A stretch of DNA of 64,000 nt, taken from contig OY811979.1 of assembly GCA_963681505.1 (NCBI GenBank), positions 5,825,910 to 5,889,909 of the forward strand. The letters run 5' to 3'. This document shows, piece by piece, positions 1-30,104 of the stretch. Origin of the DNA: Eunapius fragilis (lineage: Eukaryota; Porifera; Demospongiae; Spongillida; Spongillidae). A program made the translations under genes and the position numbers. The notes under the pieces are model-generated. The model did not search any database. It was not told the origin of the DNA and saw only the letters and a program-made list of their open reading frames with translations. Every line of letters begins with the position of its first letter. The first letter of the stretch is position 1.

Positions 1-559
1 GTTTTATGGAACAGATCCCAAGGTTGATATGGTAAAACTAAACCCAAGGTCGATTTTTATCGAGAAGGGGGAGAGAGCGAGCTAGAGGGAGGGGAGCACG
101 GCTGTTTCGAGATGGACATTAGGTTTTCTAATTAGAACCGTATTACATTTACGGTATTCTTAGAGTCCTGACGATTGATGGAGCTCATTAAAATGTGGTT
201 TATGTTCTTAAACTTATTTTTATCACACAAAGCTTGCAATAAAAGAAGGATAATCATTTAAGCATTTCTACATTTATTTCTATACTAGATAAGATATATG
301 CGCACAGTCAAGGTGTGTTATTTTTTTACCTACTAACTCCGCGCAGGTCACGGTCATATTATGGATAATATGAGACACTCAAACGGCAACCAATTTTTCT
401 CGAAAAAACGCCTGATAGTTGGGCATGAAACTTACCTTTTCGTAAAGAGGAATCATTGCACATTCTATACGTGTTTAGTTTATGTCTAGACATATTTTCT
501 GGTGAGAGAACAAAACGGTTACTTTTCGTTTGTTTAGTCATGAATAAATCGAAGTCACG
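1..559. other. Stretch upstream of the RAG1-like gene, no gene recognised
   Basis: I see no coding exon here on either strand. The minus-strand open frames are short and lack recognisable motifs or splice context. If the RAG1-like gene starts further upstream, its promoter and a first exon would lie here, but I cannot place them. I did not find a convincing terminal inverted repeat matching the far end of the gene. Confidence 0.4.
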
Positions 560-571
560 TGCTTTGATTAC

Positions 572-876
572 ATGTACCGTACGGCAATGGATATTCCACG
601 ATGCCAAGTAAACCGTTTGTGCAGGGTCTGTGGACACAGATTGTTGAAAAAAACCTCTGCTGGTTATCATATAGCTGTGCTAGTTTCTCAGTGGAGCTCA
701 GGATATGTTGTTTTGAAATTGACATCAGCAATGACACAGCTGACTTTCCCCCCAGCTTCTGCAAATCTTGTAGACTTGCTTTGTCCAGGATTCAAGAAGC
801 TTCTGAGAAGAAGATTCCATACAAGTGTATGGTAAAGCCATACAATTGGTCCCTACACTGTCCCAGTACATGCAAG
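572..876 (+). CDS. RAG1-like copy 1, N-terminal zinc-module exon
   Basis: This exon encodes CRVCG (first Cys codon at 620) and, about 50 residues on, an IDISND segment followed by FPPSFCKSC. Spacing and motif order match the conserved zinc-binding region near the RAG1 N-terminus, where CRICG is followed by an ID.. segment and FCHNCW. The two halves sit in different reading frames (frame of 572, then frame of 601), so one nucleotide has been lost or gained between about 660 and 720. The exon ends at TGCAAG|GTAAAC, the same donor as in the second copy at 10175. The start codon is uncertain; the ATG at 572 is only the first in the open frame. Confidence 0.65.
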
Positions 877-3800
877 GTAAACATATTCACATGACCTCAT
901 AAGTTTAATCATATGCACATACACATGCACACACTAATTCATGTACACAATACACATATTTCAGGAAACCATACATGTACACTCATGGATGCACTTAAAA
1001 GAGCCACGGAAACCAGGGCGGCAACCAGGTGTCACACCAAGTGCTCTGCTTCATCATATAAACACCATTGCACCTCAAAAGATCATGGGTGGTAAAAATG
1101 ACCCTGCATTAGCACCAACACAGGTCATTTCAGTCATAGACTTACTCAAATTTCCTATGTGCAAAGGAATGTTGTCACAGCCACTGAAGTTGCATTGTGA
1201 TGTTGTAGTGTGTGCTAAGTGCGTTGTTGATGCCATTACAACATCAGCCAGTACTCGGTGTCCATGCTGTGAGGATGCTGTTAACTTGTTACCAAGTTCT
1301 GTGCAACCAGCTTCAGACATAATACAACGTCTTCAATGTGATGTGATAATATTGTGTGAAACATGCAATAGGGATGTACGAGCAGGTGACTATGACTCAC
1401 ACGAGTGCCAAAAGTCTGGAGTTCTTGAAGAGCAAATGGCTTGTAAGGTGATTAGAAGAATCCTGTCTGAAAGTACAAGTGACAACATTTTACAAATTAA
1501 GACAGGAGGAACTGTACGTTATAAAAACGAAGTTGGTAATATTTAAAGCCTATTTCTCATCTTATACAGCCACTGACTTTATAGTGCGAGTGACAAAGGC
1601 TCGTTTATCTCAAAGTGAGCAAAACTGTAGCACGAAAACTCTTAAGCGAAGAGTCAGTGAGCTTCAGGCAGTGAGGAGCCTTCTGTCACCAGAGAGACCT
1701 GAACAAGTCCTTGTGGAGGAAATCAGAGCCTTGGGAAGTGATGAAAAAAAGAAGATACTGGCTGATGCAGGTATTACTCTAGATATAGATGCAAAAACCG
1801 GACTTGCCATGAAAGCAGCACTATGTATGCCTTGGAACCAACTTCGGACATTAAGGAGGTAATTCTTCACTTGTGTGAAAATAAAATAAAGCCCACTTTT
1901 CTATGCTCAGATGGTTGTCACATTCGGGTGTACAGATAGAAAGTGAAAAGAGGCAACGTCTCATCGCAAAAGACATCCTGGGAGAGAATTTAGAAGCAGA
2001 AGTTGCACCATTTTGCTTCTCACGCCCGTCTTGTGATGATGGGATAAGAGCAGCTGTCTATGCGTATACCCCAAGCCTCATACAGAAAGTGACCAACCTT
2101 ATAGATGAAAATGAAAGGTAATGTACACTATATTTTTAGTAACCTGATCAGTGCAGTTTCTCTAAACAGTGCAGGTACTCTGATGTGGCATAATGGAGTA
2201 ATTCCAGAGACTGAAATATGGGTCAAACTCGGAGGTGATAAAGGCGGTGGTGCATTTAAAACGAACTTTCAAATTGTAAATACCAACTCACCAAACTCAG
2301 TCCACAGTACATGTGTGTTTGCATGCTTTGAGGTATAAGGACACCATAGCAAACTTTCACATAACCCTTGATAGATACAAGGATGAAGTGACAAATTTAG
2401 GCATGTCTCAATGGAAGTGAGTCATACGAAGTATTAAATATCTGTTTACTCCAATATTGCTTTATTTATAATTGCTACTGTTACAGAGGTTACAATATCA
2501 GAGTCTTTCTATCAGGGGATTACGAGTTTTTATGTGCATTATATGGCCATTCAGGTGCAAGTGGTAAGCAAGCTAAATTTTACACATATGGGAAATACAC
2601 AACATGCACATACCGTAACATAGGGAAGCCGCCATGTTTATGGTGTTTGGTGACACTTGATGACCTAGAAAGAAGTTGCAGTTTGAGAGCCCCATTTCCC
2701 AAGCGGACCCTTCAGTCAATGTTTGATGACTACAAACGCTTTGTAGCATCTGGAGGGGATATAAGGAAAGTGAAATTTTTAAATAACTACAAGGGAGAAC
2801 CCTTGTTTGCCATTCCATTAACCCAGGTAAATATTCACATATGTTATGATTAGTCACTTCATTTCCATATCTTTTTAAAGGTCTGCCTTCCAGGACTACA
2901 TATATCCATGGGCATATTCTATAAACTGTACTCCTTACTTGAGGAGGAATGCCACCTCTTGGATTTAAGGCTCGCCTTGCAGTTATCTACAAATACAGGG
3001 CTAACACCTGCATCCTATGAAGAGTATGCAACTGCACTGAGGGAGCTGACTGTACTCAAGGAGCAACTGGAAGTGTTACATCATGAACGCAGCAGTCTGA
3101 AGGATTTCTTCAACTACTCTGCAATGATTGTGGGAGAAAGCAGTCCTCTTCTCTCTAGTCTAGCAGAGGAAGACATAAGCTACAGCTGTAAAATAGCAGA
3201 ATTGGTTAGTTACTGGATATTAGGCAACACATGTTATCCTCATGCCAATGGATGTAGGAAAAAAAGATCAGGTATGTGAATCTGAAGTTGGAAAAGGCGT
3301 TTGCAGTGTCTGAGGGACCATTTGTGAAAGGGGTAGAAGCTGTACTCCAATCTCTCAATGTACAACACCAGCAGTACCATGGTGGAGCATTTATTGGTAA
3401 TCATGTACACAAGGTATTGCAGGTAAGTATTTTTTTAAAGTAGCACTTTTGGCTTAATGCAACTTTATATTTTCTCACATAGGCTCAACACACACATGCA
3501 CTGTGCACATCGCTTGTATGTACAGCACAAAAGTACTCACCGCAACTGATTGGAAAAGCAAATGCCCTTTGTGATAAATACAAGCGGGCATTTGCACTTT
3601 TTTCTCAGTACCACATACTCTATAATAAGAATTTGGTATCTAAAGAAGAAAAGACAGCACTCAGTACGTGAACTGTACTTCAAACCTTTTTTTGACATAT
3701 TTCATTGCATGTAATGCTGGAAAAGAATTCTTTAGCTATTTCGACAGTGCTTTCCCTGGAACAAATAGGACAATTAAAATGCATATACTGGAAATGCACA

Positions 3801-4027
3801 TCATTGAGTGGATGAGTACATACAACGCTGGATTTGGGCTAATGGAAGAACAAGGCACTGAAGCAATACATGCCCATTTCAACAAGCTGTATAGGACCTA
3901 CGGCTGTATGGCAAACAAAGTGCAGAGGCTGAAATGCATTATGCAAGAACATCATTTGAGTGTGTGTCCAACTCTCAATGCCCTGAAGCCTGAAATAAGA
4001 ACGAGAAAAAGAAAACGCAAAGACTAG
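572..4027 (+). CDS. RAG1L: RAG1-like recombinase/transposase gene, copy 1 (multi-exon, apparently frame-damaged)
   Basis: The gene encodes a protein collinear with vertebrate RAG1, the DDE recombinase that derives from a Transib-type transposon. Approximate exons: 572-876, 965-1517, 1570-1858, 1911-2117, 2170-2416, 2487-2563, 2624-2826, 2881-3204, 3267-3422, 3483-3669 and ~3707-4027; most borders are GT/AG with consistent phase. In order they carry a CRVCG/FCKSC zinc module, a RING-like finger and a second C2H2-like finger, a region like the RAG1 DNA-binding and dimerisation part, GGDKGGG (candidate first catalytic D), GDYEFL...SGASG...CLWC, LHISMG...FYKLY, GAFIGNHV, and EQGTEAIHAHFN with the candidate catalytic E. 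The last exon ends in a basic KRKRKD tail. Oddities: a frame change inside the first exon, a +1 shift near 2333-2336, and a serine where RAG1 has its second catalytic aspartate. It could be a domesticated gene, a decayed transposon or a pseudogene. No RAG2-like partner is visible nearby. Confidence 0.75.
965..1517 (+). CDS. RAG1-like copy 1, RING-like and second zinc-finger exon
   Basis: After the acceptor at 961-964 the exon begins with a basic KPGRQPG stretch. A RING-like block follows: MCKGMLSQPLKLHC, VVVCAKC and RCPCC. Then comes a smaller finger, LCETCNRDV...YDSHEC. RAG1 has the same order (RING then a C2H2 finger), with similar linker lengths. Compared with a canonical C3HC4 RING, the first Cys aligns with Phe and the His with Asp, so zinc binding is probably weakened. 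The exon ends TGGTV and splices in phase to a PTDFIVRV exon at 1570. In vertebrate RAG1 this RING is an E3 ligase; function here is unknown. Confidence 0.65.
2170..2826 (+). CDS. RAG1-like copy 1, core exons with candidate first Asp and CxxC
   Basis: Three exons (2170-2416, 2487-2563, 2624-2826). The first carries WVKLGGDKGGG; its Asp codon at 2236-2238 is the candidate first catalytic residue. NFQIVNT..PNS follows, resembling the RAG1 stretch after its first Asp. Next come GDYEFLCALYGHSGASG and, across a 60-bp intron, GKPPCLWC. This matches RAG1 GYDEKL...EASG...CTLC, in which the CxxC begins the zinc-binding core domain. The frame breaks by +1 at 2333-2336, between FACFE and KDTIANF; no intron of usable size fits there. 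Confidence 0.65.
2881..4027 (+). CDS. RAG1-like copy 1, C-terminal core exons with candidate Glu
   Basis: Exons 2881-3204, 3267-3422, 3483-3669 and ~3707-4027. LHISMGIFYKLYSLLEEE aligns with the RAG1 LHCDIGNAAEFYK region, but the aspartate position reads Ser (codon 2905-2907). The next exon has GGAFIGNHVHKVLQ, like RAG1 MNGNFARKL. The final exon has GLMEEQGTEAIHAHFNKL (Glu codons 3845-3862), aligned with RAG1 ASEGNESGNKLFRRF around its catalytic Glu, and a RLKCIMQEHHL helix like its ...VLKHHWL. The stop is at 4025-4027. The acceptor of the last exon is not certain. Confidence 0.6.
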
Positions 4028-4641
4028 CCTTAAATTGTTAAGATACTCATGGCATTGATTTCATTTAACAACATCGGACGCTTACGATACGGATAGTACA
4101 TGCACTGAATATTCATCCGTGAATCAACGAGACCGCGCTCCGCCATGTTAAAATAACTGCCATATTCAGAGGCTTGGTACGTCTCACAGAAAATATGTCT
4201 AGTAACAGAGATAGCCAGAATACGTAGAGACAGCACTCTTGTACACACTCATACCATTTAATAGACCACTTGTCAGGCAAAAAAAAGAAAAAAGTTATTT
4301 CGAAGATGATGACTCCAAATGGAGCACAACTCAATATCATGGCGTACGTTAACATAAACAACATAACGCTGGTATGTCTGTAGTCCTCCAATGATGTATA
4401 ATCCATATGTTTAACTGTATTTACCTTTCCTTGAACGGATTGCACAAGATAACCCAGGTATGCTATAATGAGGCCCCACTTAATCGCTCTACCGCCAAAT
4501 ATGGGGACGAGACCTAATGTCCATTTTTCAATGGAATGAAACACCCGTGGGAGAGAGGTAAAGTGAGTGAGAGGTAGGTAGCGAGAGATAGAGGTAGATT
4601 GGCAAGGAATATATGTACTATCAGTGGTTCTTCTTATTCAG
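4028..4641. other. Interval between the RAG1-like gene and COP1; weak minus-strand frame
   Basis: A 143-codon minus-strand frame (4544 to 4113) encodes hydrophobic stretches after MFHSIEKWTLGLVPIFGG. A possible splice donor lies after QSVQGK (near 4426). I do not recognise the protein and see no conserved motif, so it could be a small membrane-protein exon or chance. The missing first exon and promoter of COP1 should also lie here or further upstream, but I could not place them. Confidence 0.3.
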
Positions 4642-7600
4642 CCCCATCTGCTTCGAAGTCTGGGATGAAGTCTACGTTACTGTGTGTGGTCACAGCTTCT
4701 GGTTAGTGGGTGGGTGACAATTGGAACATCACCTATCTGTGTAGGCATGTACGTGCTGTGCTTGCATATAAGATAATTGTTTGATATTCTATGCAGCCAT
4801 GGTTTGTGTGCATGTGTGTTTGCATGTGTATGTGTGTATGTGTATATGTGTGCATGCATGTGTGTGTGTATGTGTACATGTGTGTGTGTAAGGCTGCTGC
4901 ATTCAAACCATGATAGCTACAGGTGTATTACCAAAGTCTTGGGACAAGTTTTCCAATGTCCAGTGTGCAAGACTTCGTTGCCTGTTCAAAATCCAATTCA
5001 CCCCAACTTCTCGTGTGAGCACTTTTTGGGGTGGTGGTGGCAATCACGTGATGTGCACATGACTCCTCTTGTCATTTCAGTGCACGACATTGTGACCAAG
5101 TACAGACAACAGTCAGTCACAAGCCAAGGGACACAGAAGGTTAGTTTTGCGAGGGGGATTGTTGTGTGTTGGCCACTGGTTTGAACCTCACAGACCCCTG
5201 ATATCCAGGAGATAATAAAATTAACCAGCCAGATCAAAGATGGTGGTATGTTAGCCAGTTGCTCCTGCGTTGTCAGTGGGCAAGGTCTCCTGTTGCCATA
5301 GAAACACTACAGGAGCTATATTTGGCTATACAAGAGCAGATACAAATTTCAGCCAAGGTTAGAGGTGGCCTGCCAATGTGTGATGTGATCATTGTGACAG
5401 GAATATTCGTTTCTTAATCAATCAAAATCTTCCATAATCAAATCTTTAAATCAATATTCAGATGATTTTGATTAACTAGTTTCAATATAACACCATAATT
5501 AATTTTTAAAATAAAATATCTGTTATGTGTTAGTACATATCCAAAAATCGCCCATACATCGGCGGTTATCTTGCATTTTATTTCAAATTGAATTATAAAT
5601 GATGTTAAAAAATCATTTATAAAAAAATGAGCCTCAATGTATGCTGTTATTTTCATTGCAATTAAAACAAGCAATGTTATGCGAAAAATCAAGACAAAGA
5701 CCTAATTACTACCGCACGTAATTATAAAATTGTCCTACATAACCACATTGTCATCAATTTATTGAATGATTTTTTGCGTTACTAAACTCTTTCACATGAT
5801 CAAGTGTTAGATGTTTGTCAAACTGGGCCATAGAATTGAATATAATTAATTACCCCTTGAGCCGCGACTTGAACTATCGACCCTATCATCCCAAAGGATG
5901 AAAACCTAACTAGGCCCGGCTCAAACTAATCGTGCAGCCTGCAACCAGGCATATTCAGAGTGCACCCTCAGTCCGGAGTCTTTCAAAACCTATATAAAAG
6001 CACAGCACGCCCGGTTCGTGGCTGTAGGTCGGTTCGAGCTCGGCCTACGGCCTGTTTAGGTCCACCTTTAGGGATGGTACTTAAGTCGCGGTTCATATAG
6101 CATATGCTTGATTCTGCCGGTGTACATTTAGGAATCCTAGGGTCGATAATTGTAACCAGAGATAATGTATATATTATCTCTGGTGTAACTTTGTTGGCTC
6201 TTGAGGATGTACATGTTACGAAGTTCCATAAAAGTGATGTGAGGGGGTGTGTCCCCCAAAGTTTTACCATTATTGCAAGGGCAGCCGTGGCAATAAGCCT
6301 GTCTGCCAATTAAGGCAATTCTAAGCTTAGCCCATCATCCTATGGGGATGCGCGATTCCAAGAATTTGAACCCTCTTGAATTGATCCGCCGAGCCTATTG
6401 GGCTATTTCAGCGTCCTCCGGTAAGTTGGTAGTGACTGGTTCATTTGTAACTACGTCCGTAATAGGCTAAATGGTTGTAAGTGGCGAGGGAGGTGCTTCA
6501 GGTCAGGCTGGATACGAAAAGTTGGGGGGGGGGGGGGGGGGAGGGTGCTTCTCTTTCCGTAAGAAGTCTGGTTGTGTACCCAGGCTTTCATGTGTCGATC
6601 ATCTGGGTCCTTTGTGTATCGTAACCTCCATCTTTGAAAATTGTAATCCCAATTATTGCAACCTAGCCACTTCTACATGTGGTCATGCATGTTAAGTCTA
6701 GCTAGTCAGTATATTTCAATAATCATTGAACTATAACATCAACAATAGCTACATGTAGGTCTGGGCACGACTAGCTGACGATAATGTTACATGTATGTGG
6801 GTGTATCTCACTAACCATTCATAGGAAGTGCAATTTGAAAGCCCTAAACTTTGAAAAATGAGTGCACTGACTACTCTCAAATAATCCTTTAGCACCTAAG
6901 GAAAATATCGAAACTATTGATGATGGAATAATGAAATGAGATTTAAAATGAATGGACATGAGAAACCTTGCATAATTAATGTGTAAGTACCTAAAGTGTG
7001 AAAAACTAGTCATAAAATGCGAAATAGTCCCCACATTGCAAATCCGAGAGCACCTAGTCAATATTTGGTTTTGTTCTGCAGTAAGCTGCTCATTTCAAAA
7101 TGCGTCAATACATTTTCTACGGACATTGAATTATGCAATGACCGAATGCCGCGTAATCCTTTTGACGCCAATTTCTCGATATGATTAGTTTCAAGGCAAA
7201 AACAGCTGTCACTGTCCCTTAACCACTAGTACTAATTAACCACACCCACCCTCCTGCAGCAAGAGGAGTATCTCCGTACAGCTGTGACGTTGAATTTCCT
7301 GGAGCGAACCAGACAGGTTATAGTGACGGTGGGTACTGCACTTGTCCACTGAGGTGGCCACTAACCCAAAGGGGTTTGTTGTGTGTCCGCAGGAGGCTGA
7401 TAAACTGCAGAGTAGGCTGAGTTTTACGGAGAAAGACATAGCAGAGTTTAAGGTGACTAGCTGCCTCCATTGTATTGTTTAACCTCCATGCACCTGTTTA
7501 ACAGAAACGGGCACAAATTGTCCCAGAATCCAATATGTCCGTTGTTCCTTCCACTGTTCCCCCCACCATCTCCCCTGCCTCTCCTTTGGGAGGCGTCTCT

Positions 7601-9307
7601 ACTGCATCTGGTGTGTTCTGCCCTGCCCTTTTCTTAGAGGCCACACCCTTTGGCTCCAGTGCACCCGAGGGGACATCAATGGTGTGTCCCATTGATCTGG
7701 AAACTCCACTATTCCTAAGCACCCAGGAAGCCCTTAGCAAACGCAACATGCGTGTTGAGGCTAACATCACTGAGATTATCAGCGACTACTTTGAAACACG
7801 GATGCCTGTTGTGGAAGCTGGTGTGTGTATACTGTTTGATCCATGTGATCTGTCAGATTATCTTTCTGCTTTGGCAGAGGGTTCGGATAACACACTACAC
7901 CAGTTCAGCGATGGTCTGTACCGATTCACGCGATACAGTACCTTCAGAGAACTCTCAGGGCTGGTTTATACAGATCCTAACTTGAATTCGAGCATTGTCT
8001 CGAGCATAGAGTTTGACAAAGATGGAGAGTACCTCGCAGTTGCAGGTGTATCCAAGAAGATTAAGGTATGGTGATGTGTACAGGTACAGGAATGTGTAAG
8101 TATGGGGCATGTATATGGGTGTGACCTGTGTATATTGTTATCTGTGTGTGAGTGTGTATATCGGTGGGACCTTATGTGGCTTGCCTCATAGATCTTCAAC
8201 TATTACTCTGTCATAAAAGCCATGGGATTCACCAACCATTTTCCAGAACAGGAGATGACCTGCACAGCCAAACTAAGGTGAGGATGTGGTGTGGTTAAGC
8301 TGGGAGGATGGTAGTGGCCAGGTGAGGAAGGGGCTAAAGTGATACAGGGTGTACCCTTCTCCACTGATCCAACCCCTCCCCCCTAATCCACTCAGCTCAT
8401 TATGCTACAACCCGTACCACAAGGCACGGCTTGTTTCCAGTAACTATGATGGTGCTGTATGTGTGTGGGACACCAGTACTGGCACACGCCTTGTGAAGTT
8501 CCAGGTAAGGAAGGAAGGCACTTTTGTTAGAGGGAAGATGGCCATGTGACTCTTGGACCTTGTAGGAGCATGAGAAGAGGGTGTGGTCAGTGGTATATAA
8601 CCCCACAGAACCCAATCTGATCGCCTCTGGGTCAGATGATCGCACAGGTGATTATAATTGATATTGTGTTCAGAGTGTTAAAATGAACCACTTCTTCTTT
8701 CCCCCCCCCCCCCCTCCCCCCCACAGTTAAACTGTGGTCTTCCAATCGTCCTCAGAGTTGCTACTCCTTCCCTGCAAAGTCTAATGTATGTTGTGTTCGG
8801 TTCCATCCTACCAATCGTTACAACCTTGCCTATGGATCTGCTGGTAAGCTTAATAGCTGCATGTGCATGCATGTGAGTGTGTGTGTGTACATGTACGTGG
8901 AAATCCTGTGGCTGTAAACGGTCGTAATACTTAACAATGAAGCTCAGTTTCCAGTGTGGTTAGTGTTTGGAGTATTATGTGTCTTTGCTGTTTTGCATGT
9001 TGGAACAGATCACATTGTGCACTACATGGACCTGAGGAAACCATCAGAACCTGTGGCAGAGTTCAAAGGTCACCTAAAAGCTGTATCGTATGTCCATTTT
9101 ATTAATTCGCAGGAGCTCGTATCAGCGTAAGTGCCATCCAATAACACGCAAAGTAGCTTTGAGAGTGCATGCCTTCTGTTTACAGGTCAACTGACAGTGA
9201 ACTAAAACTTTGGGACCTCAATAAGGGCATTGTGAGGACATACAAGGGACATTTCAACGAAAAAATTTTTGTAGGTCTCAGTGTTACCCCACACTTCATT
9301 GCTTGTG
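4642..9307 (+). CDS. COP1: E3 ubiquitin-protein ligase COP1 (RFWD2), 14 exons, incomplete at both ends
   Basis: COP1 is the substrate receptor and RING E3 ligase that targets transcription factors such as c-Jun and ETS factors through its WD40 propeller, with DET1/DDB1/CUL4. Exons: 4642-4701, 4917-5014, 5081-5139, 5194-~5245, 5277-5357, 7260-7316, 7393-7452, 7505-8065, 8192-8277, 8396-8504, 8566-8647, 8727-8843, 9009-9126, 9186-9307. The first two form a RING (PICFE..VCGHSFC.YRCI, QCPVCKTSL, then HPNF). Exons at 5277-7452 are the coiled coil. Exon 7505-8065 ends in FTRYS..SSIVSSIEFD, the entry to the propeller. Later exons carry CVWDTSTG, EHEKRVWSV, ASGSDDRTVKLW, HYMDLR, FKGHLKAVSYVHF, SASTDSELKLWDL and GHFNEKIFVGL. 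Almost all phases agree; the 5194 exon border is uncertain. The last exon ends at the IACG position. About 75 further residues expected in COP1 were not found downstream, nor was the residue-1 exon upstream. Confidence 0.93.
4801..4893. repeat. TG-rich microsatellite in a COP1 intron
   Basis: An interrupted (TG)n tract with ATG/CATG interruptions fills most of the 215-bp intron between the two RING exons of COP1. It ends about 25 bases before the acceptor at 4916. The open frame across it is low-complexity (Cys/Val/Met) and is not a protein. Confidence 0.85.
5358..7259. other. 1.9-kb COP1 intron with tRNA-like/SINE-like fragments
   Basis: This is by far the longest COP1 intron. It contains no convincing exon. 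On the minus strand near 5862-5927 there is a segment with an A-box-like stretch (GGCCTAGTTAGG), a B-box-like stretch (AGTTCAAGTCG) and complementary ends (GAGCC/GGCTC). Near 6327-6405 a further segment has TAGCCCA/TGGGCTA ends and a GGTTCAAATTC motif. Their arms do not fold into a proper tRNA, so they may be pieces of tRNA-derived SINEs. A poly-G run lies at 6524-6541. Confidence 0.35.
6161..6188. repeat. Perfect short inverted repeat (28 bp)
   Basis: CCAGAGATAAT and its reverse complement flank a GTATAT core, giving a 28-base perfect palindrome inside the long COP1 intron. It could be a remnant of a mobile element or a cruciform-forming site. Nothing else around it suggests regulation. Confidence 0.6.
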
Positions 9308-9898
9308 GTGAGTTCCATCAGTTTTTCCCCCAGTGCCATGCTACATGTATAGCGTGGCGCATTCCAGGTGATAAATGTGTGGGCTATGAATTTAATTAGC
9401 ACTTGGTTGCCTTGTCATCTCACGGTGGTCCAAACGCGGACATTAAGTTGTATAATTAGAACGAATAGTTCTATTGCGGTATACGTAATCGTACATTCAT
9501 ATTTTCAAAACGGCTGTCTTTCCATGCTTATAGTTCTTTCGCACAACGACCAAATGCCAAAAGAATTATATGAACCTATTCACAAAGTAATGCGATCATA
9601 AACTCTTTCAAATTCGCATAAAAAAAGTACCCTCTTGATAAATCAGAAGTCCCGCGCATTGGTGTACCATAAAGACAGCCATTATGGTGACTTACATGGA
9701 GATGCCTTTTGCTTCCAATCCGCCAGAGGGTTTGAGCTGTCTTTATTAGCATACATTCAGTGGTCCAGGTACAGCCTCTTAAGCATGTTTTCTTTTGTGG
9801 CCATTGCTTTCTTGACCTCTCTTTTATGCCATCAAACTACATGAACCACTTGAACGGTGTGCCCACACAAATCAAGGATGCAAGGTGACCTGTTATGC
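9308..9898. other. Junction between truncated COP1 and the second RAG1-like copy
   Basis: A good splice donor (GTGAGT) follows the last recognised COP1 exon, but I find no exon encoding the rest of the propeller in this interval. Reading through the donor would add about 30 residues before a stop near 9399. The rest is AT-rich sequence with no motif I can name. Confidence 0.5.
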
Positions 9899-11160
9899 GA
9901 TCTGAGCAGTCATTGCAGAGTTTGTGGTTTCAAGATAAAGCAAAGGGAATAGTGAAGGCTAAACTCGTATTTGACTGCGCTCCACATGCAGTCGATTTGC
10001 AAAGGGCCTTTGGCATTGATATCACCAACGACCTGCAAATGAGCCTCCCAAATACTTTCTGTAGGCCATGTTACCAATCAATGGAACATGCTGTTAAGGC
10101 AATAGAAGCTAACTTGGTTCAAAGATGCATGGTAAAAGTTTATGACTGGTCTAAGCATGCTGCCAACAATTGCAAGGTAAACATTTGTAACCCCATCACC
10201 AGCCAAACACTTTACACATGCATATATATATATATATATATATATTCATATGCAGAAGTGCACATCATACAGACAATGTTGCTGGACAAAGATAAGCAGG
10301 TATCCTGCAAAACAATCCATGGACATAGCACAAACCAAGAACCTTATCACATTTAGCAGATTGCCCCACAAAAACTCATCTCTTCCAACGAACATCCAGC
10401 AGTATCTGCCAACCAAGTCCTTTCTGTTGCTGAAATGCTGTTATGTGCCATGCCAGAAGACTCTTGATCAACCAATACAGCTGTCATGTGATACTTTGGT
10501 GTGTACAGGATGTTTGGTACAGCAATTAACAGCTTCTGCACAGACATTCTGCCCTTTTAGTTCTCCACCACATCAACTGACGCCAGAGACCATCAAACCA
10601 GCATCACAGATGATACTAAGGTTGCTGCAAGATGTACTGGTGAAATGCAAACGAGATGGGGCATTCATTGGAAATCATGTCAACAGGGCACTACAGGTAG
10701 TAATTTATACAAACCTGTATCAAAATGTCTATTTCTTACTGCTGCAGCCATCAAGCATAGCAACTCTGCTCTTCAGTGTAAAAAACTGCTGAACAATGCC
10801 CAACCCTTATGGAGAATGCAACGGTGTGAGAAGTTCACCACATTGGTTACTAAGTTTGCAACGTGCCAATGGAGGAATCATGTCAAAAAAAGAAGATAAC
10901 ACTCATCTAGGTAATTCCTTATGTATCTAAAGTGTATTTATTACATTTTATACACAGACCTATCGATCAGGGAATTTATGGATGCTTTCACTGCAGCCTT
11001 TCCAACAGTACGTCGAACAGTGAAAATGCACCTGCTTGAGGATCATGCTACAGAACTAGACGAGGCAACTATGCAAAATGGGTTTTGGCAGTATGGGTGA
11101 GCGAGGGGCTGAAGCTATCAATGCACAGTTTAATTCTCTGATGATGACTTACAGCTGCAT
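9899..11160 (+). pseudogene. RAG1-like pseudogene, copy 2 (internal deletion, frameshifts)
   Basis: This copy retains CRVCG (first Cys at 9914), AFGIDITND, LPNTFCRPCY and the same TGCAAG|GTAAAC donor at 10175. A RING-like exon follows (CCYVPCQKTLDQP, LSCDTLVCTGC, FCPF). That exon runs directly from the position of the second finger into GAFIGNHVNRALQ, which in copy 1 lies several exons later. The region of the first two catalytic positions is therefore deleted. The next exons match copy 1 (GIMSKKEDNTHL; then FMDAFTAAFPTVRRTVKMHLLE and GERGAEAINAQFNSL with the candidate Glu). Frameshifts occur after CRVCGFKIK, in the penultimate exon and just before GMGERG. Shared intron positions show that both copies descend from an intron-containing ancestor. 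Confidence 0.7.
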
Positions 11161-12600: not shown

Positions 12601-13640
12601 GGTCGCACCCCGCTGAATCTTGCTGCGTGGGAAGCTGCCCTCCGCAGACACCCAGACAAAGACTTTGCTACATACCTCTGCTCAGGCTTAAGGGTGGGGT
12701 TCAGGATTGGCTTCGTGCGCGGTCGAGGCTCAAAAGTGCCACAACCAACCTGTTCTCCTCGTTCGAATACCCCGATATCGTTCAGTGGTACATTTCAAGC
12801 TGGGCAGGATGCTGGGACCACTGGACCTCATATGTCACTCCACTGTCCACATTAACAGGTTCGGCGTTATTCCCATGGGCCACGCCACCGGGAAATGGCA
12901 TCTGATAACAGACTTATCCTACCAACCCTGGGAAAGTGTGAATGACGGTATCGATCCCGAGCTCTGCTCCCTCCGCTACACATCGGTCGACAACGTAGCT
13001 ACAGCAGCCGCTGGATTAGGCCACTTATGGTGAAGGTCATAAGCGAGGCAGCATATCGTCTGGTGCCGGTTCACCCAGACGATCGCCCACGTTTGGGCAT
13101 GGAATGGAAGGGCCAGGTTTTCGCGGATCCAATGCTACCTTTCGGTCTCCGGTCTGTGCCAAAAATATTCAACGCTGTGGCTGATGCAGTGGAGAGGTAT
13201 CCGAAGTTGCAGGGGATCGCCCATTTATTTCATTATTTGGATGACTTCACTATTCTCGGGTCGCCTAACTCCGACGAGTGCGCGAGATCCTTAACCGTTT
13301 TATGGCAGGCATGCACCCCTAACTCGAGATACCGTTGGCAAAGCATAAGACTGAGGGTCCAGCGACCCGGGTAACGTTCCTGGGCATCATGATCGATAGA
13401 ATGACAGGCCAGCTGAGCCTTCCATCGGAGAAACTGGTGCACCTACAGTCCCTCCTTATAGATTGGGGAGACTGGAAATCCTGTTCGAAGAAGGACCTAA
13501 TTGGCACTCTGAATCACGCTTGCAAAGTCGTTCGTCCCGGTCGTTCCTTCGTGAGGAAAATGATAGACTTACTTAAACAGCACAAGAAGGCGCACCATCA
13601 GATCCGGCTCAATCGAGAGTTCCGCTCCGATCTTTATAGC
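12600..13640 (+). pseudogene. Reverse transcriptase of the DIRS-type element, frameshifted
   Basis: The order of motifs is typical: TPLN..AWEAALRRHPD, GFRIGF, then INRFGVIPMGHATGKWHL and TDLS...SVNDGI, LPFGLRS.PKIFNAVADA, and HYLDDFTILG with the catalytic DD near 13240. These lie in three frames (12028, 12707 and 13027 series), so several indels have accumulated. The SVNDGI and LPFGLRS blocks distinguish it from the Gypsy polymerases further along the window. Confidence 0.7.
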
Positions 13641-13650
13641 ACTGTGGAAT

Positions 13651-14130
13651 GTGGTCTTGTACCTACTTGCAGGAAACTCATCGGAGTTTGTGTCTGATGC
13701 TTCCGGGTCTTGGGGGTGTGGTGCCCAGTGGTTCCAGATCGAGTGGGACGAACAGTCCTCGCCTCTAGCAATCACGATAAAAGACCTGCTGCCAATCATG
13801 TTCGTGGTGGTTGTGTGGGACAGGCGCTGGCAGGCCCAGAAGGTACGCTGCCACTGTGATAATCAAGCAGTCGTCGCAGTACTTCGTTCGAGGTCGAGTA
13901 AACAGCCACAGCTAATGCACATGCTGCACTGCCTATTTTTCATTGAAGCATCGTACGGGTTCGAATTATCAGCCTCGTATATACCTACTAAGGTGAATGA
14001 TCTAGCCGATGATCTTTCCTGCAATAACCTATCCTCTTTCCTGTGTAAGGTTCCAGCACTCAAAGGCAAGCAGGTACAATTTCCTGCCCAGCTACTGGAG
14101 ATCCTGCTCGACACGTCCGGGGACTGGACG
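13651..14130 (+). pseudogene. RNase H domain of the DIRS-type element
   Basis: Starts with SDASGSWGCGAQW, where the first Asp is catalytic. It continues through ITIKDLLPIMFVVVVW, CHCDNQAVVAVL and SASYIPTKVNDLADDLSC, the DNQA and N..AD/LS motifs of retroelement RNase H. It follows the reverse transcriptase directly and is open for about 150 codons. Confidence 0.7.
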
Positions 14131-14149
14131 TCACGAAACCGGATGCGTC

Positions 14150-14715
14150 ACTTCAGGAATACTTTCACAATGGCCTCACCGCATCCGCGCACCGGTCCTA
14201 CGATTGCGCATTGAATCGTTTTAACTCGTTTTGCATGCAATACAATGTTTCTGATCCTTTCCCAGTGACTGAGAAGTTGCTCTGCTACTTCTCCACTAAA
14301 TTGGCGGACGATGGGCTGGCACCTCAGACGATTAAGGTGTACCTTTCGGCCTTCCACAGCATGCAGCTGTCCCTGGGGCTGCCGCCACCGCGAGAGGAAT
14401 TTACACTGCCAGTGTTGAAGAGGGTACTGGACAGCATACGGCAGGTCAGGGCATCAGGGAATCGCACACCACGTATTTGCATGCCAATCACCATTGCCGT
14501 TTTACGTCAGATCCATGCTGTACTAGGTGCATGGGTCTCTGAACCAGACGAACTGGCGTTCTGGGCTATTGCCACCCCAGCATTGTTTGATTACTTCCGC
14601 CTCGGGGAGTTACCGATTGGGTCGGAGGTCGGCAAGTCATCTTTCCTGGGGAGACGTTGCCCTCGACAGCAAGGCAGCCGCTACCTTGGTTAAAATCCAC
14701 TTAAAGAGGTCAAAC
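14150..14715 (+). pseudogene. Tyrosine recombinase (YR) of the DIRS-type element, truncated
   Basis: An N-terminal SAM-like region (FPVTEKLLCYFSTKLADD, TIKVYLSAFHSMQ) is followed by the beginning of the catalytic domain (FWAIATPALFDYFRLGEL, with the first conserved Arg). After WGDVALDSKAAATLVKIHL, in a shifted frame, the sequence stops. The HxxR and Tyr motifs of an active YR are absent before the 3' repeat at 14764. Confidence 0.65.
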
Positions 14716-15949: not shown

Positions 15950-16670
15950 GAAGAAGAAGAAGAAGAAGAAGAAGAAGAAGGAGGAGGAGGAGGAGGAGGA
16001 GGAGGAGGAGGAGGAGGAGGAGGAGGAGGAGGAGGAGGAGGAGGAGGAGGAGGAGGAGGAGGAGGAGGAGGAGGAGGAGGAGGAGGAGGAGGAGGAGGAG
16101 GAGGAGGAGGAGGAGGAGGAGGAGGAGGAGGAGGAGGAGGAGGAGGAGGAGGAGGAGGAGGAGGAGGAGGAGGAGGAGGAGGAGGAGGAGGAGGAGGAGG
16201 AGGAGGAGGAGGAGGAGGAGGAGGAGGAGGAGGAGGAGGAGGAGGAGGAGGAGGAGGAGGAGGAGGAGGAGGAGGAGGAGGAGGAGGAGGAGGAGGAGGA
16301 GGAGGAGGAGGAGGAGGAGGAGGAGGAGGAGGAGGAGGAGGAGGAGGAGGAGGAGGAGGAGGAGGAGGAGGAGGAGGAGGAGGAGGAGGAGGAGGAGGAG
16401 GAGGAGGAGGAGGAGGAGGAGGAGGAGGAGGAGGAGGAGGAGGAGGAGGAGGAGGAGGAGGAGGAGGAGGAGGAGGAGGAGGAGGAGGAGGAGGAGGAGG
16501 AGGAGGAGGAGGAGGAGGAGGAGGAGGAGGAGGAGGAGGAGGAGGAGGAGGAGGAGGAGGAGGAGGAGGAGGAGGAGGAGGAGGAGGAGGAGGAGGAGGA
16601 GGAGGAGGAGGAGGAGGAGGAGGAGGAGGAGGAGGAGGAGGAGGAGGAGGAGGAGGAGGAGAAGGAGAGG
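15950..16670 (+). repeat. Giant (GGA)n array with short AGA start
   Basis: About 30 bases of (AGA)n pass into roughly 690 bases of nearly pure (GGA)n. It ends in GGAATA/AGAATA variants at 16672-16710. Read in one frame it gives a 240-residue poly-Arg ORF, which is not a protein. The flanking sequence at 16716-16945 is the end of a Helitron-like element that normally has a short GAA/GAC tract at this point. The array therefore seems to be an expansion seeded within that element. Confidence 0.9.
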
Positions 16671-16715
16671 GAGAGGAATAGGAATAAGAATAAGAATAAG
16701 AATAAGAATAAGAAG

Positions 16716-18912: not shown

Positions 18913-19085
18913 TGTAATGCAGGATTTATTAGTCTGCGCTTGCGCAGTACATTGTATTGATGGAACATTGTGTAATAGATTGTCACACGCACACCCGTGA
19001 TCACACATATATATATATACCTTATTGTTGTATGTTTGTCAGTCTGTACCTCGTGTATACCTGCTATCAATCTTGGCCGCTTACA
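18913..19085 (+). repeat. 5' LTR of Gypsy-1
   Basis: It is 173 bp long, TG...CA bordered, and identical by eye to 23798-23970. A TATATATATATA stretch at about 19006-19018 may serve as the promoter. Confidence 0.93.
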
Positions 19086-19086
19086 C

Positions 19087-19100
19087 TGGCGTAGTCGGCT
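19087..19100 (+). promoter_or_regulatory. Primer-binding site of Gypsy-1
   Basis: TGGCGTAGTCGGC starts one base after the LTR, as expected for a site complementary to a tRNA 3' end (CCA). The same motif follows the LTR of Gypsy-4 at 44006. That supports its role and the kinship of the two elements. Confidence 0.7.
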
Positions 19101-19114
19101 CTACACGAGTTGGA

Positions 19115-19999
19115 ATGTCCAAACCCTTGCTCCTACCTGAGCCCTACGGAGGCGAAGCGGGTGGCTGGGCGGAATGGGTAGACCATTTCGAGAACGTAGC
19201 CACTGTCAACAAGTGGGCCACTGGTGAGGAGAAATTAAAATGGCTGAAGGTGCGTCTAACTGGGAAGGCTCAGACAGCGTTCAAGAAGTTGCCACAAGAT
19301 GTGAAAGAAAACTACGGTGAGTGCATAAAATCCTTACAGCGCCGTTTTGACCCTGACAGTAAGAAGCAACTCTACGTGGCCGAGTTAAGTGCCAGAACGA
19401 GGCGAAAGGACGAAGACTGGGCTACTTTCGGCGACGTATTGAGAGTTCTTGTGGACAAAGCGTATCCTGACCTGGAGGAGAAGGCAAGAGAACGTCTTGC
19501 ATTAAACCAGTTTTTGGCACAAATTGAAAACGCCCAAGTCGCTTTCGGCGTGAAGCAGAAACGACCCACCAACGTCGAGGAGGCTGTCGTCGCAACAATT
19601 GAATTAGAGTCGTACTTGGGAAGCTCCGGTAAGCCGCTGCGAGTGAGCGCTGTGTCCCCACAGGAACCAGACCCAGATGTACGCGTACGCCGTGCAGACC
19701 GTGCTGAAGCTGTCGCAGCTGTCTCTCCACTTGATGAACCTCAGACGGTGAAGTTGCTTGGCGAGCGGCTACAACGGTTGGAGATGCTACTCGAGAGACA
19801 AGGGAGTTCCACAAGGCCTCGGACAAGTAAGCAAACTGGGGAGGCTGAGAGTGGGAAACGCAAGGCTGTAGTCTGTTGGACTTGTGGCAAGAATGGCCAT
19901 ATTGCAAGAGTTTGTCGGAGTCGCGCAACAGAGCAGCATCAGGGAAACTTCAGTCCCTCAGTGGAAAGAGCCCACCACGTGAGGGAAGAAGACATGTAG
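19115..19999 (+). CDS. gag: Gag polyprotein of Gypsy-1
   Basis: 294 codons from an ATG 29 bases after the LTR (MSKPLLLPEPYGG). A capsid-like region (GWAEWVDHFENVA, TAFKKLP, LQRRFDPDSKK, LALNQFLAQI) is followed by one zinc knuckle, CWTCGKNGHIARVC, at about residues 249-262. It forms the retrotransposon particle and binds the RNA. Its 3' end overlaps pol by 124 bases, with pol in the -1 frame, which suggests -1 ribosomal frameshifting. The gag decayed at 44.0-44.8 kb is a close relative. Confidence 0.92.
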   Translation: MSKPLLLPEPYGGEAGGWAEWVDHFENVATVNKWATGEEKLKWLKVRLTGKAQTAFKKLPQDVKENYGECIKSLQRRFDPDSKKQLYVAELSARTRRKDEDWATFGDVLRVLVDKAYPDLEEKARERLALNQFLAQIENAQVAFGVKQKRPTNVEEAVVATIELESYLGSSGKPLRVSAVSPQEPDPDVRVRRADRAEAVAAVSPLDEPQTVKLLGERLQRLEMLLERQGSSTRPRTSKQTGEAESGKRKAVVCWTCGKNGHIARVCRSRATEQHQGNFSPSVERAHHVREEDM

Positions 20000-22900
20000 A
20001 GGCTCAAACTGATCAGTTGACTGTTCCTTCTCTTTCGGTAACTTGCGGGGTAAGTTACAGCGTAAAGGGAGTCATTGGGGTGGTAGCTATTGCATTCGTT
20101 GTTGATACGGGAGCAGCTGTATCTCTTATCCGCAAGGATGTCTGGACACAACTTGTAAACAGGGACAGTACACTTGTTCTTGAACAGTGGTCTGGAAAAA
20201 AGCTTGTAGGGGTCAATGGGGCTTCATTGTCTATATGTGGGTGTGGAAACATACAGGTTTTGTTCAAGGGTACTCCATTTATGGTCACTTGCATTGTAAC
20301 TGATGACATCACTATAGAGGCAATCCTTGGGTTGGATTTTTTGGAAGCTAATAGTTGTGTGATTGATTGTGGTCAGAAGGTACTCACATTCCCCTCCCAA
20401 AAGCTTTCAATTCCATTCTTAAGCAAAACCACCACAGAACAAGGAGTTGCAACTGTTGGACTGGTCCTAAAAGAGAAAACAGTTGTTCCAGCAGGAAGTG
20501 AAATGGAAGTTATGGTAAAAATTGCTGGTCCAGTCACTAATGGTACGTGGTTTGTAGGACACAAGTCAGCCACTTGTAAGGGTGTGATGGTGGCTAATGC
20601 AGTAGTGTCTCCAAGCAGTAATGTAGTACCAGTACGTATACTGAACCCACGTGATGAAATGGTGGTGCTGAAGAAAGGAACACAGATTGCAAGCATGGAG
20701 CTCCTGGAGCAAGATCCAGTTATCAACATATCTACAGTGATGAAGAATGCTGAAGTCTCACCGGAATGCCAGAGCATTTTATGGGATTTGGTGTCTAAGG
20801 TTGGGAATCACATTAGTGAGAGTGAAAGAGAACAACTCTATTCTCTTCTTGTGGAGTTTGCCGATGTCTTTTCTTTCAGCAGCAAGGACTTGGGCCGCAC
20901 TAAAGAGCTGAAGCATCATATTTTCACCAGTGATGCTCAACCAGTGCACCTATCTCCACGTCGTATTCCTCAGGCACGCAGGGAGGAGCTCCGAGGCTTG
21001 CTGAGGGACATGCTGGAGAGTGATGTAATCCAACAGTCTGACAGCCCTTGGTCCTCACCTATAGTGTTAGCAAAGAAGCATGATGGGACAACACGATTTT
21101 GCGTAGACTACAGGAAGGTAAACGAAGTAACAAGAAAAGATGCCTACCCACTACCTCGAGTGGACGACACTTTGGACACACTGGTTGGTTCTAAATTCTT
21201 CACCACACTCGACCTTGCCAGTGGGTACTGGCAAGTGGAAGTGGCTCCCGAGGATCAACCTAAGACAGCCTTCACAACACCGGAAGGACTTTACCAATTC
21301 AAGGTAATGCCATTTGGCTTATGTAACGCTCCAGCGACATTTCAGCGTTTAATGGATAGAGTCTTGAGTGGGTTAAAATGGTCGAGCTGTTTAGTGTATT
21401 TTGACGATATAATTGTAGTAGGTACTACATTTCAGGAGCATTTGCATCACCTCACTAGTGTCTTCACTCGTCTGAGGGGGGCGGGTCTCAAGCTAAAACC
21501 AAAAAAGTGTACACTCTGCAGGCAGCAAGTAACATTTCTAGGCCATATAGTATCCACAGATGGTGTTGCAACAGATCCAAGCAAAACTGAGGCTGTGTCG
21601 AAGTGGTCCATTCCCCAGAACAGAAAAGAAGTTCAACAATTTTTGGGGCTAGCCAATTACTATAGGCGTTTTGTAAAAGACTTTGCCTTGATCTCAAAAC
21701 CACTACAGCGGTTGACAGAGAAAAACGCACCTTTCGAATGGACCATTGGATGCCAAAACGCTTTTGATGAATTGCGTAAACGTTTGGTTTCTTCCCCAGT
21801 CCTTGCATACCCAGATTATGAGCGACGTTTCATACTCGACACGGATGCAAGTGATGTTGGAATTGGTGCTGTGCTTTCACAGGTTAGTGATTGTGGTTCT
21901 GAGCGTGTTATTGCCTATGCGAGCAGATCGCTTACTAGGCCAGAGCAAAGGTATTGTGTAACACGTAAAGAATTATTAGCAGTTGTGGAATTTGTACATC
22001 ATTTTAGACAGTATCTCCTTGGGCGAGAATTCACCCTTCGAACTGACCATGGATCTCTGGTCTGGATCCGGAATTTTAAAGAACCGGAAGGTCAACTGGC
22101 TCGCTGGCTAGAGAGACTCCAGGAGTATAACTTCACCGTTGTGCACCGCCAAGGCTTGCGCCATTGCAACGCTGACGCCCTTTCCCGTGTCCCATGCAGG
22201 CAGTGCGGTAGGGACAAAGATATAGAATCGGAGAACACCGTCATGGTAGGAGTGGTTTCCAATCCGTTCCAGAAATATACTCCAGCTGAGATGAGGCAGA
22301 TGCAACTGGACGACTCAACCATCCAACCTGTTCACTGTGCTGTATCTTGTGGTCAACCAACGAGCCCTGATATTGTTAAATCGTGGAGTCGAGGAAGTCG
22401 TCTCCTGATGCAACACTGGGACGCCCTCTGCATTTATGATGGTATCCTGTGGAAGAAATGCGTGGATGGAAGTAGAAGATTCCAGCAGCTCGTTTTACCC
22501 GCGAAGTTACAAGTGGATGCTCTTCGCGATCTCCATCAAGGGGCTGTAGGCGGTCACATTGGAGAGGAGAAGATGAAACACAGACTGAAAGAGCGGTTTT
22601 ACTGGCCAGGATGTACAGAAGCAGTTGGGGAGTGGTGTAGGAACTGCAGAAGCTGCACCACGAGGAAGACGGTTGCCCCAAAGAGAAGGGCTCCTCTGCA
22701 AACCATTAAGGCTGGGTACCCGATGCAAATCGTGAGTGTAGATTTAATGGGCCCCCTTCCCGAGACTGAGGATGGCTGTAAGTATGTCATGGTAGCTATG
22801 GACTGTTTTACCCGGTGGGTAGAAGTGTATGCTATACGGAACCAGGAGGCCACAACTGTTGCTAAAAAACTTGTTGATGAAATGTTCTGCCGTTTTTCTC

Positions 22901-23712
22901 CTCCAGAACAGCTCCACAGCGACCAGGGACGACAGTTTGAGTCAGATTTGGTGAAGGAGATATGCGAACTGTTGCAGATCAGAAAAACGCGCACCACGCC
23001 ATACCACCCACAGTGCAATGGAATGGTGGAGCGGTTCAATCGGACTCTATTGGACATGCTTTCCACCGCAGTCAGCAACAATCAAGCTGATTGGCAGCAG
23101 CACATACGTAAACTTTGTCTGGCTTACAACTCTAGCGTCCATTCCTCCACAGGATTTACTCCGTTCTTCTTGATGTTCGGGCGCCAGGCGAAGCTACCGA
23201 TCGACCTGATGTACGGCACTAATCAGATGGAGCCGAACACTACCTCCGAGTATGCACGCTGCTTGAAAGACGCCTTGCAAGAAGCATACGCACTGGTGAG
23301 GGAGCGCTGTCAGGCCGAACATAAAAGGCAGAAAGAGCTGTATGACCAAAAAGTGCATGGGAAGCCATTTAGCCCGGGCGAGTTGGTGTGGTTACACTCC
23401 ACAGCTGTTCCTCGTGGTCGATCCAGAAAGCTACACCATCCTTGGAAAGGACCCTTTAAGGTCATGGAACGACTGGGCGAGACCACGTACAAAATCAAAA
23501 ACCTTCAAGGTCGGAGGAAAACAACATTTGTTCATTTTGACAGGCTCAAGCCGTGTGTAATATCCGATGACAAGCCAGAGAACACAGGGTCCAGAGAACA
23601 AGAACCAGTTGGTACAAATCTGGATATCTGGTTGACAGCGATGACGATGATCCAGTACAGCAAGAAGAGGCAGCAGTCCCAGAAATTGCAAACCCACCTG
23701 TACCACCCTTAA
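19876..23712 (+). CDS. pol: Pol polyprotein of Gypsy-1 (protease, RT, RNase H, integrase)
   Basis: The open frame has 1278 codons; the true N-terminus comes from a frameshift inside gag. An aspartic protease lies around residue 77 (VVDTGAAVSL). The reverse transcriptase has YFDDIIVVG with its DD pair at about 21403. RNase H starts near TDASDVGIGAVL (21841), with TDHGSLVW later. The integrase has an HHCC zinc finger (HQGAVGGHIG...CRNCRSC), catalytic DLMGP (about 22740), HSDQGRQFES (about 22917) and MVERFN (about 23023), and a C-terminal GELVWL...KGPFKV domain. No internal stop is present. All active-site motifs I can check are intact, so this copy may be active. Confidence 0.95.
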   Translation: MDLWQEWPYCKSLSESRNRAASGKLQSLSGKSPPREGRRHVEAQTDQLTVPSLSVTCGVSYSVKGVIGVVAIAFVVDTGAAVSLIRKDVWTQLVNRDSTLVLEQWSGKKLVGVNGASLSICGCGNIQVLFKGTPFMVTCIVTDDITIEAILGLDFLEANSCVIDCGQKVLTFPSQKLSIPFLSKTTTEQGVATVGLVLKEKTVVPAGSEMEVMVKIAGPVTNGTWFVGHKSATCKGVMVANAVVSPSSNVVPVRILNPRDEMVVLKKGTQIASMELLEQDPVINISTVMKNAEVSPECQSILWDLVSKVGNHISESEREQLYSLLVEFADVFSFSSKDLGRTKELKHHIFTSDAQPVHLSPRRIPQARREELRGLLRDMLESDVIQQSDSPWSSPIVLAKKHDGTTRFCVDYRKVNEVTRKDAYPLPRVDDTLDTLVGSKFFTTLDLASGYWQVEVAPEDQPKTAFTTPEGLYQFKVMPFGLCNAPATFQRLMDRVLSGLKWSSCLVYFDDIIVVGTTFQEHLHHLTSVFTRLRGAGLKLKPKKCTLCRQQVTFLGHIVSTDGVATDPSKTEAVSKWSIPQNRKEVQQFLGLANYYRRFVKDFALISKPLQRLTEKNAPFEWTIGCQNAFDELRKRLVSSPVLAYPDYERRFILDTDASDVGIGAVLSQVSDCGSERVIAYASRSLTRPEQRYCVTRKELLAVVEFVHHFRQYLLGREFTLRTDHGSLVWIRNFKEPEGQLARWLERLQEYNFTVVHRQGLRHCNADALSRVPCRQCGRDKDIESENTVMVGVVSNPFQKYTPAEMRQMQLDDSTIQPVHCAVSCGQPTSPDIVKSWSRGSRLLMQHWDALCIYDGILWKKCVDGSRRFQQLVLPAKLQVDALRDLHQGAVGGHIGEEKMKHRLKERFYWPGCTEAVGEWCRNCRSCTTRKTVAPKRRAPLQTIKAGYPMQIVSVDLMGPLPETEDGCKYVMVAMDCFTRWVEVYAIRNQEATTVAKKLVDEMFCRFSPPEQLHSDQGRQFESDLVKEICELLQIRKTRTTPYHPQCNGMVERFNRTLLDMLSTAVSNNQADWQQHIRKLCLAYNSSVHSSTGFTPFFLMFGRQAKLPIDLMYGTNQMEPNTTSEYARCLKDALQEAYALVRERCQAEHKRQKELYDQKVHGKPFSPGELVWLHSTAVPRGRSRKLHHPWKGPFKVMERLGETTYKIKNLQGRRKTTFVHFDRLKPCVISDDKPENTGSREQEPVGTNLDIWLTAMTMIQYSKKRQQSQKLQTHLYHP

Positions 23713-27313: not shown

Positions 27314-27427
27314 TGTTAGGATATGAACTAATAGTTAGTAATAGTTAGTTAACTGCGTGACTCTATATGATGCGCATGTATCTGTAGCGTGTTCATATCA
27401 GTGTGCAAATTGAGCTATTTCCCTACA
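27314..27427 (+). repeat. 5' LTR of Gypsy-3
   Basis: It is 114 bp long, TG...CA, and identical by eye to 31774-31887. It is unusually short for an LTR. Confidence 0.92.
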
Positions 27428-27446
27428 TATTTGGCGACGAGGGACA

Positions 27447-30101: not shown

Positions 30102-30104
30102 TAT

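Follow-up and report, generated by a model that had tools for sequence, protein, structure and literature searches.

Chapaev DNA transposons with a Chapa domain and a RING were reportedly described by Kapitonov and Jurka in 2007. In two Chapaev subgroups, the Chapa region and the RING precede the core, and Kapitonov and Koonin argued in 2015 for an ancestral fusion to the core that is shared with the line of RAG1 (PMC4411706). The hallmarks of Chapaevs are a target site duplication (TSD) of 3 to 4 bp, CAC/GTG ends, and the C(2)C, LH, and H(4)H motifs (PMC4079192); DUF1280 is the Chapaev transposase and falls into the same clade as RAG1 in a structural classification (PMC3985635). RAGL has been reported in bilaterians and cnidarians, and sponges or Porifera are absent from the available text of Martin et al. 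(PMC7204232). Explaining how V(D)J recombination originated still requires a source for the non-core N terminus of RAG1 and for the 12/23 asymmetry of its recombination signal sequences (RSS). Here, we describe a locus in a 64,000-nucleotide stretch (the window) of chromosome 9 of Eunapius fragilis, a freshwater sponge. An earlier note, correct in suspecting a sponge, had called positions 572 to 4027 a RAG1-like gene. The gene sits in a 4.45-kb element, and we are confident that it is a Chapaev transposase gene and not a RAG1 or RAGL/ProtoRAG gene. Our main finding is a sponge addition to a known kind of Chapaev, and the "RAG1-like gene" is best renamed.

A recently mobile element

The genome assembly searched has 24 contigs totaling 218,937,333 bases, and the window occupies C9:5825910-5889909 of a 9.79-Mb chromosome in it; the genome note reports 23 chromosomes with 218.91 Mb and a 28.5-kb mitochondrial genome (PMC12616128). 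Comparison of copies revealed sharp borders at window positions 97 and 4549, with the termini CACGG...CCGTG.

93..96, + strand: left TSD GGAG, identical to 4550-4553
97..4549, + strand: complete DNA transposon, very probably of Chapaev type, 4453 bp; borders common to near-identical copies on other chromosomes, with flanking 4-bp duplications
4550..4553, + strand: right TSD GGAG, identical to 93-96

The genome holds dozens of copies of the element. When the exon at 2881-3204 was used as the query, 150 scored matches were obtained out of 226 candidates, including three at 100% and two at 99% identity, which are spread over five different chromosomes, one of them that of the window; the terminal 200 bp matched at least 41 times (left) and at least 40 times (right). 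Both ends were read in 18 copies of the window family, two of which have decayed left ends, leaving 16 scorable copies. Twelve of these are flanked by a 4-bp duplication (GGAG, GACG, CCTT, AGTC, ACCA, GCAT, CATT, AATT, GAAG, GTTC, ATGT, and GGGG), against a chance expectation of ∼0.06; CATT holds only with a one-base change in the element end, and GGGG sits in a homopolymer in a copy whose ends are 12.6 kb apart. Duplications were also seen in other subfamilies (AGAT at L021, GTGG at L024, and AGGC at L023), and no exact 4-bp duplication was found at the flanks of L022 or L025. A recent cut-and-paste origin is less well served by the remaining 4 of the 16 copies, which lack an exact 4-bp duplication (L019, C13:2625499, C4:10809233, and C23:502829); the flanks of C4:10809233 agree at three of four bases.

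Two full copies are 99.8% identical to the window element; over the 4453 bp, one has 9 and the other 10 substitutions, and neither has an indel. Both carry the frame break of the window copy (see below) yet have different target duplications, so the broken version has moved. This points to mobilization in trans or, alternatively, to a break just before a burst of movement. Two copies at ∼98% identity do not have the break; the changes they do carry include an altered length of exon 1570-1858. The window element is, in our assessment, very probably a DNA transposon of the Chapaev superfamily that moved recently by cut-and-paste.

The transposase gene

A GT-AG model from 587 to 4027 on the + strand has 12 exons and 11 introns and gives a 939-residue reading. 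The model is predicted from DNA alone, and its weakest junction is intron 1 (663-691), which is only 29 bp long.

587..662, + strand: exon 1, RAG1-like N-terminal zinc (Chapa) region with its first Cys pair (GT-AG model)
692..876, + strand: exon 2, remainder of the Chapa-like zinc region (profile match to the mouse RAG1 N terminus)
965..1535, + strand: exon 3, RING finger and second finger (profile match to the RAG1 RING/dimerization domain, including 1rmd)
1570..1858, + strand: exon 4, region preceding the core (exon model)
1911..2117, + strand: exon 5, start of the core (exon model)
2170..2416, + strand: exon 6, first catalytic Asp (residue 466, GGDKGGG) and DUF1280 match (Pfam, alignment of relatives)
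2333..2336, + strand: frame break, then stop; also in the two other 99.8% identical copies
2487..2563, + strand: exon 7, second catalytic Asp (residue 536, SGDYEF) (alignment of relatives)
2624..2826, + strand: exon 8, C(2)C zinc motif (CLWC) (alignment of relatives)
2881..3204, + strand: exon 9, LH motif (LHISMG) (alignment of relatives; the genome query above, with 150 scored matches)
3258..3422, + strand: exon 10, GAFIGNHV (alignment of relatives)
3483..3667, + strand: exon 11 (exon model)
3736..4027, + strand: exon 12, H(4)H motif (HILEMH) and catalytic Glu (residue 885, EQGTEAIH) (alignment of relatives)

The motifs listed in the earlier note are all present on the + strand in the order it gave. 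The model reads CRVCG (614-637), FCKSC (754-774), WSLHCPSTC (844-873), the RING (1151-1270), the second finger (1352-1408), GGDKGGG (2225-2251), LHISMG (2890-2913), GAFIGNHV (3381-3410), and EQGTEAIHAHF (3845-3880). The GASG and KPPCLWC parts of SGASGKPPCLWC, which ends at 2646, are split by intron 2564-2623. These motifs lie within 572 to 4027, but the feature to which they belong is larger (97 to 4549); this extent, the frame break at 2333-2336, and the multicopy state go beyond the earlier account. Since the frame is broken there with a stop directly after, the window copy is limited to 498 residues; it retains Asp 466 and loses Asp 536 and Glu 885.

The nearest protein match, from the sponge Ephydatia muelleri, is 66% identical over 99% of the 939-residue reading, placing the motif order far beyond chance. 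In an alignment of the window reading with 11 relatives, each sequence that covers the catalytic and motif columns conserves them; P0001 lacks the exon of the first Asp, and P0011 lacks the LH stretch. The sponge relatives are annotated as hypothetical proteins. Relatives were found in freshwater demosponges and in Sycon ciliatum, a calcareous sponge.

Chapaev or RAG1

The window protein matches Pfam DUF1280 (PF06918) with an E value of 1e-9 and 38.8 bits (cutoff, 25), as do 17 of 24 relatives at E values up to 0.1. The element has the Chapaev hallmarks: 4-bp TSDs, CACGG...CCGTG termini, CLWC, LH, HILEMH, and the catalytic residues D466, D536, and E885. Chapaev3 elements make 3-bp TWA duplications, and those of the window family are 4 bp long and of mixed sequence. 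Transib has no N-terminal zinc/RING region, which profile comparison detects here, and both Transib and RAG1/RAGL make 5-bp duplications.

That the locus is instead a genuine RAG1L gene or element of the RAGL/ProtoRAG type, directly related to vertebrate RAG1, would agree with the shared domain order, with RAG1 being the top match in structural and N-terminal profile comparisons, with element ends that start with CAC, and with end asymmetry, as in ProtoRAG with its 27/31 spacers (PMC8289069). It is contradicted by duplications of 4 rather than 5 bp and by DUF1280, a Chapaev mark. Furthermore, the Pfam RAG1 core (PF12940) matches neither the window protein nor any of the 24 relatives, while mouse RAG1, the positive control, scores 1,158 bits, and positions 97 to 4549 contain no RAG2-like gene nor room for a second gene, the coding part leaving just 490 bp on its left and 522 bp on its right. 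We rejected RAG1/RAGL membership on the duplications, the missing RAG2L, and the missing Pfam RAG1 match, and consider it very improbable. Whole-genome Pfam searches for RAG1 and for RAG2 were both empty, as were the controls of those searches, so that absence from the genome is unproven.

A host gene domesticated from a transposon might be suspected from the long multiexon structure and from the annotation of sponge relatives as hypothetical proteins; the frame break, intact ends with a target duplication, and copies on other chromosomes that are nearly identical make this extremely improbable. Nothing was found in favor of contamination by bilaterian DNA, which the earlier note named as a possible refutation: the window is inside the E. 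fragilis chromosome, copies lie on many others, and the closest protein comes from a sponge. We regard its probability as negligible.

The Chapaev assignment also bears on age. The earlier note proposed that a recombinase with an N-terminal zinc region already existed in a very early animal lineage, and this is not established. Transposons can cross species, and repeated horizontal transfer has been documented for three Chapaev families (PMC4079192); presence in sponges, including S. ciliatum, is therefore not enough to place the origin of the architecture in early animals.

Kinship with RAG1

The RAG1 domain order seen in the earlier note is borne out: the N-terminal zinc (Chapa) region, the RING, the second finger, and the DDE core follow each other in the transposase family as in RAG1. 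Profiles of the N-terminal zinc region and RING match mouse RAG1 with E values of 1.6e-22 and 4e-9. The RING Pfam match in exon 3 is weak and under its cutoff. Across the genome, RAG1_imp_bd exceeds its cutoff at 50 places, at 19 of which DUF1280 follows 1.3 to 1.7 kb downstream on the same strand. The comparison of predicted structures with the RAG1 core, suggested in the earlier note, gave a RAG1-type core fold in models of two relatives, with RAG1 as the top structural match and ∼15% identity over the structurally aligned core; in the relative P0008, the part matching exon 5 falls on RAG1 from about residue 460.

Several results tell against this kinship. The fold was modeled for relatives that share 30% and 34% identity with the window reading and not for the window protein itself; the window sequence alone has no RAG1 match in PDB, where its best matches are the RINGs of RNF125 and BRCA1; and a profile comparison with the mouse RAG1 core (hhalign) aligns only 116 columns, with a probability of 21.7%. 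For the segment preceding the core, hhalign gives an E value of 0.1, and 6 of 60 shuffles score as well or better; the nonamer-binding domain region, to which this weak comparison applies, is also modeled with low confidence. On account of these hhalign results, we dropped sequence proof of core homology. Kinship with RAG1 needs profile or fold comparison to become visible. Judging by the predicted models, the transposase is distantly related to RAG1 and has an RNase-H-fold DDE core that carries inserted zinc motifs.

Asymmetric ends

The ends of the element are bipartite, with an outer CACGGCTGTT-like and an inner GACATTAGG-like motif separated by 8 bp on the left and 18 to 19 bp on the right.

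97..123, + strand: short end, outer motif CACGGCTGTT, 8-bp gap, inner motif GACATTAGG (end scan)
4513..4549, - strand: long end, outer motif CACGGGTGTT, 18-bp gap, inner motif GACATTAGG (end scan)

Among fetched loci, the gap is 8 in 19/19 left ends and 17 to 20 in 14/14 right ends. This count allowed at most one substitution per motif, which places subfamilies C, D, and E outside it (they were assessed by subfamily comparison instead), and left out L001 to L008, 3.3-kb pieces of which seven of eight come from copies present again as longer loci. A genome-wide search for the end pattern yielded 129 matches, compared with 0 for the reversed control. Among the 100 matches listed of the 129, the total length is 27 in 48, 37 to 39 in 48, and 24, 30, 31, or 33 in 4. 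The same 100 form 16 neighboring convergent pairs within 12 kb: 15 join a short to a long end, and none joins like with like.

A functional rule for pairing short with long ends is suggested by these counts, and we put its chances at about even. Two points count against it: the remaining pair joins a short end to an in-between end of length 33, and the copies are not independent, so that the number of pairs overstates significance and the five subfamilies are the fairer number. In all five subfamilies with both ends readable, the gaps are 8/18, 8/18, 8/19, 8/19, and 8/19 (L020, whose long end is missing, and L025, whose long end is decayed, were unusable). The alternative, that the difference is an inherited insertion in the long end with no functional pairing rule, deserves real weight, although we hold it to be well short of even. 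Copies share descent, and the long spacers of all five subfamilies share CATTGAA, which may itself be a protein site. An inherited insertion fits less well with a short gap fixed at 8 while its sequence varies (four different 8-mers across five subfamilies) and with the retention of outer and inner motifs at both ends in subfamilies that are mutually 34 to 56% identical over the one exon compared.

L025 (C7:9650200-9659000) is 98% identical to subfamily C over 56 to 59 residues and has a gap of 8 at one end; its decayed long end is without the CATTGAA part of the spacer, a natural shortening. Shorter elements of ∼2 kb (8 pairs; e.g., C1:3534573-3536558) and 852 bp (2 pairs; e.g., C3:13611352-13612203) have the same short and long ends and are probably nonautonomous derivatives.

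The 10- to 11-bp difference between the ends resembles the one helical turn that separates 12 and 23 RSS. A limited literature search, covering its sources in part, found no description of such asymmetry in Chapaevs, and within that search it is what sets the sponge element apart from described ones. It is unlikely, in our view, that the sponge pairing rule (8 versus 18 to 19 bp) is homologous to the 12/23 rule and that the Chapaev/Transib/RAG ancestor had a Chapa-RING-core transposase joining a short- to a long-spaced end. If this were true, the N terminus of RAG1 and the logic of 12/23 recombination would be far older than adaptive immunity.

By analogy, a transposase dimer would pair unlike ends, with the inner motif 8 or 18 to 19 bp from the outer CACGG motif, and nick at CAC, as is inferred from RAG1 and HzTransib biochemistry. 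It would probably leave hairpinned flanks, as with RAG and HzTransib, and insert the element at a 4-bp stagger; we lean modestly toward such RAG-type hairpin chemistry. The C(2)C and H(4)H zinc motifs would shape the core, and the N-terminal RING may act as a ubiquitin ligase.

Neighboring features

Other features of the window lie downstream of the element.

7502..8071, + strand: exon with a weak WD40 match at its end; by eye it resembles COP1, and it probably belongs to a host gene next to the insertion
9889..10789, + strand: second Chapaev-like gene, from another subfamily and present as a remnant, with a zinc region (RAG1_imp_bd E value, 0.0011, under the cutoff) and RING-like cysteines
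13567..14693, + strand: two overlapping open frames that by eye resemble a DIRS-like RNase H and tyrosine recombinase; the frame at 14049-14690 has no Pfam match
∼15950..16700: purine-rich repeat of GGA type, ∼750 bp long; the 16001-18000 bin has a GC skew of 0.478
19001..23712, + strand: long Ty3/gypsy-like retrotransposon frame group with Pfam protease, reverse transcriptase, RNase H, and integrase
27414..31754, + strand: second such group, with Pfam protease, reverse transcriptase, and RNase H

In the remnant at 9889-10789, GAFIGNHVNRALQ stands directly after the RING-like cysteines, apparently as the result of an internal deletion.

Comparison with known systems

The sponge element is closest to the Chapaevs of PMC4411706, with which it shares the order of Chapa zinc region, RING, and DDE core, CAC...GTG ends, a 3- to 4-bp duplication, and DUF1280. 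Those elements are named from lancelet and sea anemone; the available text mentions neither sponges nor a one-turn asymmetry of the ends. N-RAG-TP of Aplysia also carries a RAG1-like N terminus in a transposon but is described as consisting wholly of the N-terminal part (PMC8355894). ProtoRAG/RAGL resembles the sponge element in its RAG1-like transposase with N-terminal zinc motifs and, for ProtoRAG, in its asymmetric ends; it differs in that RAG1L is paired with RAG2L, in its 5-bp duplication, and in the ProtoRAG spacers of 27/31 (PMC7204232, PMC8289069). Transib/HzTransib differs in its 5-bp duplication and in having no N-terminal zinc/RING region; most Transib ends are symmetric, and a few are 12/23-like (PMC8289069, PMC8355894).

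With vertebrate RAG1 and its 12/23 RSS, the sponge element has in common the domain order, the core fold as modeled for its relatives, and two end types one helical turn apart; unlike that system, it has no RAG2, a 4-bp instead of a 5-bp duplication, no RSS heptamer/nonamer sequence, and ∼15% identity over the core as aligned by structure. Asymmetric spacers also occur in the Drosophila P element, which belongs to another superfamily and makes an 8-bp duplication. When RAG1 likeness is met in a nonbilaterian genome, a check for Chapaev is due before RAG1 is claimed. The sponge family provides recently active multicopy elements outside Bilateria and Cnidaria that combine the whole RAG1 domain order with defined ends and a conserved one-turn asymmetry.

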